The notes below the pieces were generated by a model. That model saw nothing but the letters and a program-made list of their open reading frames with translations. It had not been told where the DNA came from and did not search any database. Positions 13,024 to 43,018 of a stretch of 64,000 nucleotides of DNA are shown here, in pieces. The first letter of the stretch is position 1, and every line of letters begins with the position of its first letter. Location: NCBI RefSeq assembly GCF_015209745.1, contig NZ_CP063657.1, positions 2,480,001 to 2,544,000 on the forward strand, given 5' to 3'. The DNA comes from Lysobacter avium. GTDB lineage: Bacteria > Pseudomonadota > Gammaproteobacteria > Xanthomonadales > Xanthomonadaceae. The translations under genes were made by a program, and so were the position numbers.

Positions 13024-13097
13024 GTGCAGCAGATGCCTGAGGGCGGACCCGCAAAGCCAGCGCTATGCCCTGCCGGCCATACGAGCGGCAGCGAACG

Positions 13098-13123
13098 AAA
13101 AAGGCGACCAGCGGCCGCCTTTT
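13098..13123 (-). terminator. copy of the aceE rho-independent terminator
   Basis: The stem AAAAAGGCG...CGCCTTTT is nearly identical to the hairpin downstream of the intact aceE (18081-18107). It belongs to the duplicated block and could still stop transcription from both sides. Confidence 0.75.
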
Positions 13124-13500
13124 CCTTATTGCATGACGCGCCTCAAGCCCCCAGCGGGTTCGGCTTCTCCGCATCGATCTTGTAGGTCTTGATGGCCCGC
13201 GCGACGCGGCATCGCCGACGCGCTGGAAACCGAACATCGAGTAGTAGATGTAGAACGGCATCAACGCGAAGTCGTTGGTGCTGTAGCTGGTCGCGCACGC
13301 CAGCCATGACGCGAACGCGCCGGCCTCGGTGATGCCTTCCTGCAGCACCTGCCCGGCGGTGTCCTCGCGGTAGTACATCAACTGGTCGCGGTCGACCGGC
13401 TTGTACTTCTGCCCGAACGGGGCGTAGATGCCGATCTGGCGGAACAGGCCCTCCATACCGAAGGTGCCGGCCTCGTCGGCGACGATCGGAACCACTCGGG
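13098..13500 (-). pseudogene. aceE: partial, internally deleted copy of the aceE 3' region
   Basis: Two blocks match the intact aceE. 13098-13200 corresponds to 18081-18190 (terminator plus last codons). 13206-13494 corresponds to 18968-19256 (E1 segment reading VADEAGTFGMEGLFRQIGIY). The roughly 775 bases between them in the intact gene are missing and the join is out of frame, so no functional protein is expected. The copy has the same orientation as aceE. Identity is high, with scattered substitutions. It marks the distal edge of a lower-GC island. Confidence 0.88.
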
Positions 13501-13538
13501 GACCGACTCCCTCACCTTCCCTCCCTCGCACCAAGGTG

Positions 13539-14219
13539 TCACCAGCGCAACGGACCCCCCTTCGGCAGCATAGGAACGATTGTATTGAGCCAACCCCATA
13601 CTTGGTTCATATGATCGCCCGAAAGTTCAGAGTCTCGGATCTTGTCCATCGAATTTGTAACCTGCCATTGATCGGCCTGGTGACCCAGCATGCGAGCTGC
13701 CGTCGATGCCAGCACGGCCTCCATCCTGCGGATTGGCGCCGGCGCTGGAGACACCGGCAGGAGATAGAGAATCCGCAACTTCTCAATGGAAGCCTGCAGC
13801 ACCGCTCTCACTTCTCCGCTCAACTCATCGAAGCGGAGGCCTTCCCTCAGCTCCTTACCCAAGCTGCCGTATGGCGGGTTCACGTCGGGGTTGACCTCAT
13901 AGATCCTGTCGATATGCCGCGCATTTCGAATGTGTGCCTTCGTGCGCTCAGCCAGCGTACTGGCACCCTTCTCTGCGATTCCAACATGCACGAACCGGTA
14001 TATTTCAGGGGACAGTGGATACAGCCAGATATAGACGCCTTTTTGATGCAGGGGCGTCGTTCCCCTGAGCCAGTCGGCATAACTACATCGACCGTGGGAA
14101 AGCGGCGACTTGAGGACGGGGTCCGTGGACAGCCAGTATTTCCACTGGCTTCCCCCCACCTCCGGTATTTTATTCGGAATCATGGGTGTGTACTGAGCAT
14201 CCAGAGCTGAAGCAATCAT
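13539..14219 (-). CDS. GIY-YIG-like domain protein of the aceE-flanked island
   Basis: A 226-residue protein not recognised as any named family. Residues 60-100 have a GIY-YIG-like pattern: KGVYIW (Y63), then RFVHVGIAEKG with H78 where the second Tyr usually is, then an Arg in AERTKAHI (R92). A candidate metal-binding Glu (E167) occurs in RRMEAVL. This suggests a nuclease fold, with some core positions altered. The start is strongly supported by AAGGAGG five bases upstream of the ATG at 14219. That ATG overlaps the stop of the WYL regulator gene (ATGA), so the two are co-translated. Base composition is clearly less GC-rich than in the flanking genes. The GIY-YIG reading is an inference. Confidence 0.6.
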   Translation of the reverse strand: MIASALDAQYTPMIPNKIPEVGGSQWKYWLSTDPVLKSPLSHGRCSYADWLRGTTPLHQKGVYIWLYPLSPEIYRFVHVGIAEKGASTLAERTKAHIRNARHIDRIYEVNPDVNPPYGSLGKELREGLRFDELSGEVRAVLQASIEKLRILYLLPVSPAPAPIRRMEAVLASTAARMLGHQADQWQVTNSMDKIRDSELSGDHMNQVWGWLNTIVPMLPKGGPLRW

Positions 14220-15220
14220 CGATACCTCCTTAGGGCTTCCATCATTTCGTTCTTTAGCCAATCCCGGAGCACGCTGGGGTGCACGACTTCCAGCTGACTC
14301 CCGAACGAGAGCAGCCACCAACGCAACGTTTCGTCGTCTTCCACCGTTGCACTCACCTCAACTTGATGGGTTCCGTCCAAGCGCACGACGACCTGATCCG
14401 GCGATAGCTTCTGTTCTCCAAGATGCGTAGCTGCGGGGCCATCGATTCGCAGTACCAGTCTGACCTTGCCGCGGGACAGGAAGACGCTGCCCTGTCTACG
14501 GGCATAGCGATGGAAGTCGAACCCTTCTGGCTTCGCGGCTTCGCCAAGCAACGCAGCCACCCCACTGATCCGGTGCAAGGCGAACTGACGCGGATCTTCG
14601 TAACCCTCCACCACGGCGACAAGGTAGAGCAGCCCCCCACGACTCAGCAGGCCAAGCGGGGAGACGATGAACTCGCGATTCTCCTGCGCCCATTTTGACC
14701 GGTAGTCCAGTTGTGCGCGGCGTTTGCTCACAAGAACTTTCTGCACCCCTTCAAGAATCTTCGGGGCCACTCGTGGGAGCTCAAGTCTCAGATGGGTAGG
14801 GACGACGGCAGTTTGCTGGTGCCAGTGCGACCAACCGCTTCGATCGAGAGTCTCGCGCGCCAATTCCTCTATCGTCCCCAGTTCCTCGGTGAGAACCCGC
14901 GGCAGCAGCCCATGAAGATGCGTGCGCGCCAGTAGTATCGCGACCGCCTGCGCGGGAGAAAGTCCGGGCATCAACGCTGGTCGCGCGTTAGGGTCCCAAC
15001 TCCATCCAAAGGGCTTTTCACGATCGTCGATCTGGATGGGGAAGCGACCCGACAATGCTTGCAAGTCTCGCTGGACCGTTCTCGCCGTCACCTCAAACCC
15101 GTGGTCAGAAAGTCGGGCACGCAGCTGGGCGGCATCGGCACGACGAGGCGCGCGAGGGATCATTTGGAGCATGGCCAGAAGGCGTTGGAGAGTTTTCGTG
15201 GAATCAGCTTTCATGCGCAT
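14216..15220 (-). CDS. WYL-domain transcriptional regulator
   Basis: A 334-residue regulator. The N-terminal winged helix-turn-helix lies at about residues 8-62 (TVQRDLQALSGRFPI) and a WYL domain in the centre (IVSPLGLLSRGGLLYLVAVV, then QFALHRISGV), followed by a C-terminal extension. WYL proteins sense nucleic-acid or nucleotide ligands, and relatives such as BrxR and CapW repress bacterial defence loci. The frame is open to a TTG at 15250. I prefer the ATG at 15220, which leaves the palindrome at 15250-15274 upstream. It overlaps the GIY-YIG-like gene by four bases and is divergent from the three-gene + strand set. Confidence 0.88.
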   Translation of the reverse strand: MRMKADSTKTLQRLLAMLQMIPRAPRRADAAQLRARLSDHGFEVTARTVQRDLQALSGRFPIQIDDREKPFGWSWDPNARPALMPGLSPAQAVAILLARTHLHGLLPRVLTEELGTIEELARETLDRSGWSHWHQQTAVVPTHLRLELPRVAPKILEGVQKVLVSKRRAQLDYRSKWAQENREFIVSPLGLLSRGGLLYLVAVVEGYEDPRQFALHRISGVAALLGEAAKPEGFDFHRYARRQGSVFLSRGKVRLVLRIDGPAATHLGEQKLSPDQVVVRLDGTHQVEVSATVEDDETLRWWLLSFGSQLEVVHPSVLRDWLKNEMMEALRRYR

Positions 15221-15249
15221 TGATGGGTTAAAGATCCAAGCGGGCGACA

Positions 15250-15274
15250 AGCTGCGACCAGATGGGTCGCAGCT
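15250..15274. promoter_or_regulatory. perfect 10-bp palindrome in the divergent promoter region; probable WYL operator
   Basis: AGCTGCGACC at 15250-15259 is followed by a five-base spacer (AGATG) and its exact reverse complement at 15265-15274. It lies about 30 bases upstream of the WYL start and just before the first + strand gene. WYL repressors of defence loci bind inverted repeats in such places, so autoregulation is the natural guess. Confidence 0.6.
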
Positions 15275-15281
15275 GACTGGG

Positions 15282-16028
15282 ATGATGCCGTTTATGGAGA
15301 CCGCTTGCTTCCCACAGTGGCTGGACGACCGGCTGGATGATCTGGCTCACGCGTACGCCGGCGCCCTCGGGGCCCATTCGAATGCCGGTAGGTACCAGAC
15401 TATGGCCTCACTCCCAAAGAGCGCCGCACGCGCATCCGACCTGCATTGGCTGGGAGAGTCGCTACTGCTTGCAGGCCAAAGCCTTCCCGCTCCACCGGTT
15501 GACCGTCTTGAATGCATTTTGGCGGCCGCGCGGCAGCTGAAGGCGAGCCATGTGCTTCGCGATTGGATGGTGGCTCTGTGTGCAGCCCATGTCGCAAGAC
15601 ACGGTTGGCGAAACACCCCGCAGACGGGATTCCTCGAATCCCAGCCGAGTCGCCACCTGTTTTTCCTGTATTGGACGCGCGTTTCGCTCCTGATACGGAA
15701 TAACAACGGTGGCGTCGGGCATCAGGCGATCAACAGGTCAATTGCGGCACTCGCTTGGCTCTATCGCGAGGAGGGTCTTGATGGTCTCAGCCATCGTTTG
15801 ACTCTCATCCAGGCGATACCCGTCGCGGATGTGGCCGAAGAGTCACCGACGGAACCCGACCCAGCTGCCTTACATGATCGCGCTGCACAATATCGGACAG
15901 AGGAGCAGGTTCGTCGCGCGCTGCTACCCGGAAACATTCGACGATATGTACCCGGACTCGGAAACAATCACCTCGCAAAAGCTTTCGACATCGCTTGGCA
16001 AAACGCCCATGTTGGCCGGAGCTCCTGA
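15282..16028 (+). CDS. unrecognised helical protein with C-terminal VPGLG tail (island gene 1)
   Basis: A 248-residue protein with no family I recognise and no signal peptide or membrane segment. It looks mostly alpha-helical with many Ala/Leu/Arg. The last 30 residues read RRYVPGLG and then a helix (AKAFDIAW). An equivalent tail, QQFVPGIG followed by an Ile/Trp helix, ends the PcfJ-domain protein two genes downstream. The open frame extends upstream (ATG at 15213 and beyond). Starting there would place the palindrome inside the gene, so the ATG at 15282 is preferred. The ribosome-binding site is weak. It is followed one base later by the next gene's ATG. Confidence 0.65.
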   Translation: MMPFMETACFPQWLDDRLDDLAHAYAGALGAHSNAGRYQTMASLPKSAARASDLHWLGESLLLAGQSLPAPPVDRLECILAAARQLKASHVLRDWMVALCAAHVARHGWRNTPQTGFLESQPSRHLFFLYWTRVSLLIRNNNGGVGHQAINRSIAALAWLYREEGLDGLSHRLTLIQAIPVADVAEESPTEPDPAALHDRAAQYRTEEQVRRALLPGNIRRYVPGLGNNHLAKAFDIAWQNAHVGRSS

Positions 16029-16029
16029 C

Positions 16030-16716
16030 ATGGCATTCACATCGATTGGCCCACCCGAACGTCCAATAGGATGCCCCCATCCACTCGAGGTAGCACTGAT
16101 CGGCGCAGAATGGGATGGGCTTCGTGACCTTCCCGCTTATGGCGGAGGAGTTCAATGGGTGGAACGAGCTACACCAGCTACCGCATTCGTCCTCCAGGTC
16201 AACGCTGGCGGCTACGCCGGAGAAGGCGTTTCGATCATCGTCAATGCTGGTCAGGACACCCAAACAGAGGTAGACCCCATCGATGCGGCCTGGCAATGGC
16301 CGGGGTCAATGCGAACGGCACTCGATGCCTTCGCCGCAGCGGTGTTGATTCCGTGCAGTTTTCCCGGACTGATCTCGTTGGACTACCAGGACTTCCGCGT
16401 CGGATTGCAGCGCAGGGCGGCATGCATCACGGTGATGCGCAAGACCGGCGGAAACCTGGAGTCGGTACTCTCTCAATTCGACCGGGAAGTCACGGGGCCG
16501 CTCGCGGCAACCACCCGGGATGACTTCACCTCCGTGCATGTTTCGGTACCCGTGGACTTGGCGTCCATGTCCACCGTGGATTGGGTGGCCTCGAAGATCG
16601 AACCATCAGCGCACATTGGGGAACTTATATTTTCGCTGACCGCGCATCGCGGCGACGAAATCGAGGTCACTATATTTACGGTCCGCCCCCCTCCGTCAGT
16701 CCTAGGATGCCAATAG
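16030..16716 (+). CDS. FtsZ C-terminal-domain-like protein without a GTPase domain (island gene 2)
   Basis: A 228-residue protein. Residues 112-218 align by eye, nearly without gaps, with the C-terminal domain of FtsZ. They contain PGLISLDYQDFR (FtsZ: PGL-N-DFADVR), a GPL stretch, a VHVSVPVDLASMSTVDW strand-helix (FtsZ: VNITAG-DL---E) and DEIEVTIFTV (FtsZ: DELRVTVVAT). The spacing of about 108 residues is close to the 112 of E. coli FtsZ. The first 110 residues lack the GGGTGTG nucleotide loop, so this is not an ordinary FtsZ. GGAG lies eight bases before the ATG, one base after the previous stop. The homology is my inference from pattern and spacing. Confidence 0.55.
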   Translation: MAFTSIGPPERPIGCPHPLEVALIGAEWDGLRDLPAYGGGVQWVERATPATAFVLQVNAGGYAGEGVSIIVNAGQDTQTEVDPIDAAWQWPGSMRTALDAFAAAVLIPCSFPGLISLDYQDFRVGLQRRAACITVMRKTGGNLESVLSQFDREVTGPLAATTRDDFTSVHVSVPVDLASMSTVDWVASKIEPSAHIGELIFSLTAHRGDEIEVTIFTVRPPPSVLGCQ

Positions 16717-17927
16717 CCGGCGTTGATAAAAAGAGCGCAACTTCCCAGCGGAAGAGCCAGATTTATCTTATGACACGTATTGATTTTGCGGCCTCCAAGG
16801 CGTGGTCTGGGTATCCCTACTGGGTGGTTCGACGGTTGAGGCGTCTCCACATCCGCTTCGCACTTGGCAACAGCAAACCGGGGATGAGCGCGGTACGGCG
16901 CAGTTACGCCAGCTTCAATTACGGTGACGGCCGATACCTCTCCCAGCACCCTTTGGAGTTGTTTGGGCACGCGTGGCTGTCCGTCGGCCCACACGTTCAA
17001 GCGCCGCCACTCCATCGGGTGCCATGCGTCGTATATCTTCTTAATGCGCTGAGGAGGGAGGATTCCTTGCTTGAGGGTTGGCTGCTGTCGTTGGCCAGCG
17101 ACACCTTGCGCCACCATCCATGGGTTGAGGACATGGAAGACCTGTGCACGTTAGGCACGCTTTTGCGTCGAGGGCAGATCCGCCGATATTGGGAGTGGCT
17201 CACCGACGTCATCAAAATCCACTGCGCGCAAAACACCTGCGTGGATGGCGACTGGCAGCGACACGTCGTTGCGTCCAGGGTGGCGATCGCGCTGTACTCG
17301 GGCTGCGGTCTATCCTCCCTGGTTCGTCGTGTCGACGCATGGCATCACTTCTCGGTTCCACTGAATGAAGCTGGCTCCCGGTTTTTCGCGGCCGATGAGC
17401 AGGTGGAGCGCACCTGCCCCTGTCCCCTACTCGACGATTCAATGGGCGTCATTCGTGGCGACGTCCATGTCCAGCACTTGGCCACGCTTCCGGCACTGGT
17501 CGCCGAAGGCAATGACATGAACAACTGCGCCGGCCACCTGCTTGATGAGGTGGAAGCGCGGTTGATTCTTGTCTTTTCACTCCGGGGCCGGAACTCCGGG
17601 AGTCGTGCCACCGGGACGGTGGCTGCAGATGAGAACGGACTTTGGCAAGTCGGGGAATTGAACGGGCCCTCCAACCAGCCGCTGGTGGCCACAGATGTCC
17701 GACACCAAGTCATGCGCAATCTGTGCTTGGAGCTGGAAGCCGTAGGGAGCCGCCACCCACGAGTTGCCGAGTGCCTGATGGCTGGATCTACATCGAAGCG
17801 GCGCCGGGAGCTCCATGCACAAAGAACTGCGACACATGGGCGAATCCAGCAGTTCGTCCCTGGCATTGGTTCCCGCGATCCAGCACTAGTCATCCAGCGT
17901 CTATGGACACGCTGCGCCAGTGAGTGA
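16707..17927 (+). CDS. PcfJ-domain protein with C-terminal VPGIG tail (island gene 3)
   Basis: A protein of 406 residues from the ATG at 16707, or 385 from the ATG at 16770; neither start has a good ribosome-binding site. The earlier one overlaps the previous gene's end. The C-terminal half carries the PcfJ signature LVAEGNDMNNCAGH, then a basic strand and GLWQVGELNGPSNQP. PcfJ-like proteins occur on conjugative plasmids and other mobile elements and their biochemical role is unknown. The N-terminal half is helical and unrecognised. The tail, QQFVPGIGSRDPALVIQRLW, matches that of island gene 1 in layout. Confidence 0.75.
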   Translation: MPIAGVDKKSATSQRKSQIYLMTRIDFAASKAWSGYPYWVVRRLRRLHIRFALGNSKPGMSAVRRSYASFNYGDGRYLSQHPLELFGHAWLSVGPHVQAPPLHRVPCVVYLLNALRREDSLLEGWLLSLASDTLRHHPWVEDMEDLCTLGTLLRRGQIRRYWEWLTDVIKIHCAQNTCVDGDWQRHVVASRVAIALYSGCGLSSLVRRVDAWHHFSVPLNEAGSRFFAADEQVERTCPCPLLDDSMGVIRGDVHVQHLATLPALVAEGNDMNNCAGHLLDEVEARLILVFSLRGRNSGSRATGTVAADENGLWQVGELNGPSNQPLVATDVRHQVMRNLCLELEAVGSRHPRVAECLMAGSTSKRRRELHAQRTATHGRIQQFVPGIGSRDPALVIQRLWTRCASE

Positions 17928-18005: not shown

Positions 18006-18035
18006 TGTCCGCCAGCCGGCGGGGGCTGGCGGACA
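18006..18035 (+). terminator. hairpin after the island's + strand genes
   Basis: A perfect 11-base inverted repeat (TGTCCGCCAGC...GCTGGCGGACA) with an eight-base loop. It has no T-run, so it may be a weak terminator or mRNA-stabilising hairpin downstream of the PcfJ gene. Confidence 0.5.
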
Positions 18036-18080
18036 AGTGCGCCCTGGCTTTGGGGCGATAGCCCCCCTCAACCGCCAAAG

Positions 18081-18107
18081 AAAAAGGCGACCACTGGCCG
18101 CCTTTTT
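18081..18107 (-). terminator. aceE terminator, probably bidirectional
   Basis: AAAAAGGCG...CGCCTTTTT forms a stem flanked by A- and T-runs on either strand, 20 bases after the aceE stop. It can also stop + strand transcription from the island. A near-identical copy is at 13098. Confidence 0.85.
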
Positions 18108-18126
18108 CTCTTACTTGTGACCCGCC

Positions 18127-20832
<2,706 letters not shown>

Positions 20833-21024
20833 GCGCCTCGCGGCCCCGTGGCCACGCCTCATCATCAGGTGGGATCTATGCCGGTGATTCTAACGCGCGA
20901 GGGCAAGCCGCGGCTGTTGGGGCCTGGCCGCCGGCGTGACCAGGTGCGCAGGTGTTCATTACCGACCCCGCGATGGTGCTTCTCCTGATTCGCGCAATCC
21001 GGCGTGGGCGGCAGGCTGGCTCGC
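20833..21024. other. divergent spacer between aceE and the RAYT-like gene
   Basis: 192 bases that should hold the aceE promoter. A TAGAAT hexamer occurs on the minus strand, but without a well-spaced -35. I see no REP-type hairpin cluster. Confidence 0.3.
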
Positions 21025-42922: not shown

Positions 42923-42928
42923 CGGTTC

Positions 42929-42964
42929 GCGGAACCGGTCGGGCTTGTCGCCGGCCGGTTCCGC
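42929..42964. terminator. hairpin in the convergent maeB-ppc spacer
   Basis: A perfect 10-base inverted repeat (GCGGAACCGG...CCGGTTCCGC) between the convergent maeB and ppc stops. It has no T-run, so termination is likely but not classical. Confidence 0.55.
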
Positions 42965-43018
42965 GGTTCATCAATACGGGTTTCCCGCCGTGAAGCGGGC
43001 GCCGCGCTCGCCGCGGGC

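Follow-up and report, generated by a model that had tools for sequence, protein, structure and literature searches.

A candidate WYL-controlled five-gene cassette with a conserved palindrome at the 3' end of aceE in Lysobacter avium

Five genes around a palindrome

We analysed a stretch of 64,000 nucleotides (the window) from the single-contig, 2.85 Mb genome of Lysobacter avium, and in particular an island at 13539-17927 in which two genes on the minus strand (B and A) and three on the plus strand (C, D and E) flank a perfect inverted repeat (Table 1). An earlier note, made from the DNA letters alone, had described here a WYL regulator joined by an ATGA overlap to a GIY-YIG-like protein, divergent from a helical, an FtsZ-C-like and a PcfJ protein, with a palindrome between the halves, a lower GC content and a core gene next to it. 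The frame listing and translations contain all five open frames, B and A overlap by ATGA, C ends directly before D, and the palindrome is present. Measured in steps of 500 bases between 13500 and 18000, the GC content is 0.55-0.62, compared with 0.667 for the window.

The starts of two genes were adjusted. The listed frame of C, from 15213, overlaps the start of B, and in the alignment the body of its relative P0017 starts near residue 22-24 of C; a start at 15282 or 15285 is more likely, and would leave the palindrome intergenic. Likewise, the longest frame of E, from 16707, overlaps D, and the relative P0007, which is 72% identical to E, begins in the alignment at the ATG at 16770, so that E would comprise 385 residues and begin 53 bp from D.

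Table 1. Position of the island genes, repeats and aceE segments in the window
Feature	Position	Strand	Description
Left aceE remnant / left junction	13091..13505	-	13091-13205 + 13206-13505
Gene A	13539..14219	-	226 aa, predicted GIY-YIG-type nuclease by motifs
Gene B	14216..15214	-	332 aa, WYL-WCX regulator, ATGA-coupled to A
Candidate operator	15250..15274	.	perfect inverted repeat, 10-bp arms, 5-bp spacer
Gene C	15282..16028	+	helical protein, E paralogue without PcfJ segment; listed frame from 15213
Gene D	16030..16716	+	228 aa, residues ~94-218 resemble FtsZ C-terminal domain
Gene E	16770..17927	+	385 aa, C-like helical domain, inserted PcfJ-like segment, C-like C-tail
Inverted repeat after E	18006..18035	.	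strong, 12-bp arms, 6-nt loop
Right terminator and aceE 3' end	18074..18189	-	less like sister genomes than left copy
aceE, right neighbour	18127-20865	-	

The palindrome and its WYL partners across genomes

The palindrome, AGCTGCGACC-AGATG-GGTCGCAGCT, has the core TGCGACC-N5-GGTCGCA at 15253-15271 and is the best-supported element of the locus, its weight coming from the comparison across genomes and not from the count in the single window. A scan of the first-collected loci gave 18 matches, all in five genomic loci, namely the window, Thermomonas haemolytica (G051), a Pseudoxanthomonas metagenome-assembled genome (G271), G293 and G164, and in each of the five a perfect repeat with 7-bp arms and a 5-bp spacer lies close to where a WYL, PcfJ or AAA gene starts. 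For the forward test, we used the exact pattern TGCGACA-N5-TGTCGCA, which the sites of the window and G051 do not fit. This pattern occurred at 20 sites in 18 of 390 family genomes, as compared to 2 sites for the reversed control. Three of the 18 genomes were already known (G164, G271 and G293), and the other 15 contributed 17 sites in 16 new regions, 8 of which contained WYL relatives of B (E-values 3e-52 to 3e-125). In 150 kb not selected by the operator, the WYL gene of the window itself was the sole relative of B at E <= 1e-5; relatives of B were present in 12 of the 20 regions compared.

The window contains one site with at most one mismatch where 0.65 are expected, which taken alone is not beyond chance, and 8 of the 16 new regions lack a WYL gene, with five of their sites inside called frames and three between frames. 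The neighbours in these eight regions are mostly housekeeping-like, as judged by eye, and we read the eight sites as chance matches that were kept in the counts. The contrast between sites in and between frames is not clean, since frame calling often starts a frame across the operator at the WYL loci as well. The pattern TSCGAC-N7-GTCGSA has one site in the 2.85 Mb genome, located in this locus, and the backwards control pattern also has one.

The control by a WYL protein proposed earlier agrees with the domains of B, which matches both WYL (1.9e-14) and WCX (1.6e-13) in Pfam. The sole N-terminal match in a winged-helix check against Pfam was a sub-threshold Arg_repressor at residues 29-54 (E-value 0.012). 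B matched five WYL models and a Cas3c model (4.6e-10) in PADLOC, and one family of unknown function in PHROGs.

To characterise the partners elsewhere, nine of 95 genes called around eight loci, plus P0016, were scanned with PADLOC. The AAA protein of G245 matched IetA (1e-33), two proteins of G182 matched LeoA (5e-136) and LeoBC (4e-123), and proteins of G244 and G574 matched PDC-M09A, PDC-M09B and PDC-M40B. The DUF2779 protein of G112 gave a weak Cas4 match (2e-8), a 216-aa protein matched Csx1 at 0.0065 only, and P0016 had no match. The G245 AAA protein and its relatives, which are 35-50% identical to it in tblastn, occur at a total of seven operator/WYL loci (G245, G011, G112, G147, G084, G164 and G293). 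Every one of the eight new WYL loci has a gene that is of PADLOC defence type or related to such a gene (IetA-like AAA, Leo or PDC-M09/M40), while the window, G051 and G271 carry cargo of the A and D type instead. Because the same operator and WYL subfamily accompany defence genes elsewhere, the window appears to be one cargo variant of a WYL/operator module for the regulation of defence, and guilt by association points to defence or damage as the role of its cargo.

Other genes were seen around these loci. A family of 200-216 aa proteins without Pfam match (L092:10257-10907) is present in five WYL/operator genomes, the relatives in L091, L004, L069 and L101 being 53-86% identical to the L092 member. 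By eye, two McrB/McrC-looking genes are located near the operator/WYL locus of G011 (L089:2501-5847) and an integrase-looking gene lies at the edge of the G293 island (L004:3874-5940), where there are also AAA and DUF2779-like genes and, as a guess, HEPN-type ones.

The full set of five genes was found in no other genome searched. Contrary to the idea of a recurring five-gene unit, only partial sets recur: G051 and G271 carry a core of A, B and D at other sites, G293 has genes of the D, PcfJ and C/E types and, ~10 kb from them, a WYL gene, and G164 has PcfJ plus WYL. What does recur is the co-occurrence of operator and WYL gene with defence genes, and it is this defence-type setting that stands from the earlier proposal of a defence module. 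For competence, which had been suggested as well, no evidence was found. That the locus fits no known system agrees with PADLOC, in which B alone of the five window proteins had a match and none matched IetA, Leo or PDC; the loci with Iet, Leo and PDC-M09/M40 thus share the WYL subfamily and operator with the window, which lacks their genes.

The individual proteins are rare. Relatives of E were found in 1 of 344, of A in 3 of 339 (one of them weak, in G213) and of D in 3 of 334 other family genomes. An A profile matched G000, G051 and, weakly, G461 among 250 genomes of the order, and a search of genome contigs gave two matches for A (G051 and G271) and none for E. In the protein database, E (P0005) found a shorter copy of itself and P0007 only, among the best 8000 candidates scored; P0004 found only itself and P0003 found nothing. 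None of E, D, A and P0016 had a relative among 72,556 plasmid records, and neither did A, P0016 and P0014 among 50,697 phage records or the proteins searched against viral contigs; of nine proteins compared with PHROGs, only B had a match. Neither this set nor a stand-alone FtsZ C-domain protein was found named in the parts of the open-licence PubMed Central literature that were covered.

Encoded proteins and insertion site

Gene A was earlier called GIY-YIG-like, and its motif series is in line with this: KGVYIW, HVGI, R92, H96, E167 and N189 follow the order GIY...YIG...R...H...E...N that we take to define the GIY-YIG superfamily, with H in place of Y in the second motif (HVG for YIG; the relative P0019 has YVG). 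The structural comparison gave nine GIY-YIG rows. In motif order and structural rows, A thus resembles the GIY-YIG nucleases (the UvrC N-domain, T4 EndoII, Eco29kI and Hpy188I), but it differs from them in the HVG motif, in its own N- and C-terminal parts and in having no curated family match in Pfam (E <= 1) or NCBIfam. The translation of another relative, P0009, ends 13 residues before its stop.

Genes C and E are paralogues. Both match P0017 of G293 (7e-9 for C and 7e-27 for E), and C matches P0007 at 4e-6; the match between C and E is weak (0.001) and falls outside the PcfJ segment, and their C-tails are similar. C has no Pfam family at E <= 1. Of the earlier designation of E as a PcfJ protein, a PcfJ-like segment remains, which at 16.7 bits does not reach the curated cut-off of 25 bits for PF14284 (21.8 bits in the relative P0016). 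This segment is probably a movable insert in the C/E family, because P0007, a relative of 264 aa, lacks it and in G293 the PcfJ protein is encoded separately from the C/E-type domain. In G164, the PcfJ protein directly precedes the WYL gene.

The D-type proteins measure 228 aa in the window and G051, 225 aa in G271 and 159 aa in G293, and the gene in G051 stands between B and dnaE. Since those of G051, G271 and G293 had been chosen by eye, from position and look, the family was submitted to a leave-one-out test. The background for this test excluded open reading frames (ORFs) that contain a D protein. P0004 (the D of the window), P0011, P0014 and P0015 each ranked first among 2,311 ORFs for a hidden Markov model (HMM) of the other three, with E-values of 0.011, 1e-4, 8e-12 and 4e-11, respectively. 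P0011 and P0014 also match each other by tblastn (3e-4).

The four-member D profile, which includes no FtsZ, gave matches in 210 of 335 genomes at E <= 0.1, four of them with a D gene and the rest with weak matches. The 26 weak matches that came with loci were checked and all are FtsZ, as is the match in the genome of the window; since FtsZ genes are near-copies of each other, the 200-odd matches count as one comparison. With the full profile, 27 of 27 FtsZ scored above all 2,310 background ORFs, as they also did when either the window's D or P0011 was left out, or when P0014 was used by itself. The number fell to 17 of 27 without P0014, to 1 of 27 for P0015 alone and to 0 of 27 without P0015 (best FtsZ second), for P0004 with P0011, for P0004 alone (best third) and for P0011 alone. 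In the reverse search, an HMM of the FtsZ C-domain placed P0014 (0.02) and P0015 (1.4) first, and P0004 and P0011 were not among its matches. All nine PDB matches of P0014 are FtsZ (E-values 0.18-0.78), and FtsZ holds ranks 3-6 for the D profile behind two designed TIM barrels, making it the top natural family.

Two residues invariant in the D family, D118 and D121, align with the T7-loop aspartates of FtsZ. The loop, with the motif NxDxxD, has a catalytic role in FtsZ; D keeps the Asp pair and not the Asn. The sequence of D has no N-terminal GTPase domain with GGGTGTG, and D is therefore not an FtsZ; it has no Pfam family at E <= 1, and its single-sequence scores against FtsZ are weak. In the predicted structure, a poor model of low confidence, the helix and strand order of residues 94-218 agrees with the order that we take to be that of the FtsZ C-domain. 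The model and its fold searches, which gave IF3-C- and Alba-like rows, were set aside as too poor to use. Judging from the profile comparisons and the Asp pair, D seems to be distantly related to the FtsZ C-terminal domain, at the level of profiles, as its earlier description had it.

The surroundings of the other D genes deserve mention. The gap of ~590 bp between the WYL and D genes of G051 (L009:10800-11300) holds what by eye looks like part of a broken IS30-type transposase. In G271, the D gene overlaps at its end with the start of a gene (L010:9801-10580) whose product is a DnaB helicase C-domain protein that lacks the N-domain (PF03796, 6e-77); this segment includes a masked stretch. The protein reads SMGM at the position where DnaB has a catalytic Glu, and the contig carries a second DnaB-like copy, 72% identical, at a distance of ~22 kb.

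The five genes make up an insertion of ~4.9 kb at the 3' end of aceE, the core gene to their right: in the three sister genomes of the same genus (G152, G185 and G169), the left neighbour gene directly adjoins aceE and there is no island. To the left of the genes lies a second, partial and internally deleted copy of aceE, which consists of the last ~115 bp with the terminator (13091-13205; 92% identical to the right copy) and a 300-bp internal stretch (13206-13505; 95% identity). About 0.78 kb of aceE is absent between the two pieces, and the joint is a 5-bp microhomology, GCGAC. Compared with G152, identity is 94.7% for the left aceE 3' end and 86.8% for the right one (84.3 versus 79.1 for G185, and 79.6 versus 79.3 for G169). 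As the left 3' end is closer to G152, the right one probably came in with the island; so, probably, did the internal fragment, which is less sister-like than intact aceE (95.3% versus 97.0% identity to G152). The copies would fit a homology-assisted insertion of foreign DNA, and 13091-13505 looks like the fossil of that event. A role for the aceE fragment as a deliberate decoy was rejected, the frame leaving aceE at the joint in the manner of a recombination scar. In G244, an operator/WYL island with the PDC-M09A and PDC-M40B matches (L102:3676-11363) also begins ~1 kb after aceE, so that the 3' side of this gene could be a hotspot for insertions; a duplicated aceE was not found in the G244 locus.

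Proposed role and alternatives

We tentatively propose, at somewhat less than an even chance, that the island is a WYL-controlled, inducible conflict cassette, directed at infection or DNA damage, in which A cuts DNA and D blocks FtsZ. B would bind the palindrome between the halves and hold the expression of both operons down to a basal level. Infection or DNA damage would be signalled to B, most likely by single-stranded DNA or another nucleic acid on the WYL domain, and the resulting change in B would open both operons. A would then cut invading DNA as a GIY-YIG nuclease, and D would dock on the nucleotide face of FtsZ and cap its filaments, so that the cell would stop dividing until it is rid of the threat or is itself lost. 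C and E may serve as accessory factors.

Parts of this scheme have precedents. BrxR operators consist of 10-11 bp repeats with a 5-bp spacer (PMC9122601), and CapW binds imperfect palindromes of 19-24 bp, with a nucleic-acid signal proposed (PMC9122588). B shares with both the WYL and WCX domains and a place beside defence-type operons with mosaic cargo, and the operator resembles that of BrxR in its inverted repeat, its 5-bp spacer and its position near the regulator's own promoter. However, the operator here is TNCGACA-N5-TGTCGNA, phmmer of B against the PDB gives other WYL proteins and no chain named BrxR or CapW, and the cargo of GIY-YIG, FtsZ-C-like and C/E proteins has no PADLOC system match. 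For PafBC, the release or conversion of the regulator by a nucleic-acid signal is described (PMC11804915). The nearest published logic seems to be that of DriD and DidA in Caulobacter, where the WYL protein DriD, whose ligand is single-stranded DNA (PMC12340889), activates a gene for a division inhibitor (PMC4211646), much as B would drive one here. DidA, however, is a small membrane protein that acts on FtsW/I/N, whereas D would act on FtsZ, and DriD is an activator, whereas B is assumed to be a repressor. The proposed outcome, a stop to division via FtsZ assembly, resembles that of SulA, MciZ, phage Kil and Gp0.4, and CbtA. To our knowledge, none of these FtsZ blockers is a copy of the C-terminal domain of FtsZ.

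The defence context of the locus is independent of D, and the cassette could be of defence type and WYL-controlled with FtsZ not being its target, the likeness of D reflecting an old shared fold that has been reused, for instance to bind nucleic acids or proteins. The weak single-sequence scores and the low-confidence model with its IF3-C- and Alba-like rows are what one might then expect. We nevertheless consider this somewhat unlikely, given that the few residues of D that never vary include the aspartates at the T7-loop position and that no natural PDB family ranks above FtsZ for the D profile.

D could also be a decoy or sensor that mimics FtsZ, such that the complex of D with a phage FtsZ blocker switches on A or C/E and FtsZ is guarded. 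CapRel is activated by a complex of FtsZ and Gp0.4 (PMC13423816), so that FtsZ is a known guarded target; the defence-type regulation at the operator/WYL loci and the retention by D of the interface-loop aspartates without an enzyme domain would suit such a role. On the other hand, none of the four D loci contains a fusion of D to an effector, and D and A belong to different operons in the window. Nor do we know of a phage protein that binds D, and on balance we find a decoy improbable.

That the genes are an element-maintenance or transfer module merely moved next to aceE, with no immune role, is very unlikely: the aceE copies on both sides of the insertion, the integrase-looking gene (by eye) near the G293 relative and the PcfJ-like segment, PcfJ being named after a plasmid gene, would fit, but that segment is below its cut-off, the plasmid and phage records contained no relatives of the proteins searched, the five proteins match no recombinase, relaxase or replication family in Pfam, the operator/WYL partners elsewhere are defence genes, and for transfer no evidence was found.

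If the conflict cassette with D as a plug of FtsZ is correct, D would represent a filament cap that occurs naturally, is genetically encoded and derives from the interface of FtsZ itself. It would offer a new probe of FtsZ assembly, and one mobile cassette would link DNA-damage sensing, anti-phage defence and division control. An unlikely but wider idea is that WYL-switched cassettes use half-copies of essential machines as dominant-negative plugs of division and replication, because D resembles half of FtsZ and the D gene of G271 overlaps one for a DnaB C-domain without its N-domain; in the covered parts of the open-licence PubMed Central literature, such half-copy mimicry was not found named for a defence system. 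The operator consensus itself provides a simple, searchable handle. It led to eight further loci with WYL and defence-type genes in one family, and new systems can thus be sought by DNA pattern alone. Elsewhere in the window, a further strong inverted repeat is located at 42928-42965.

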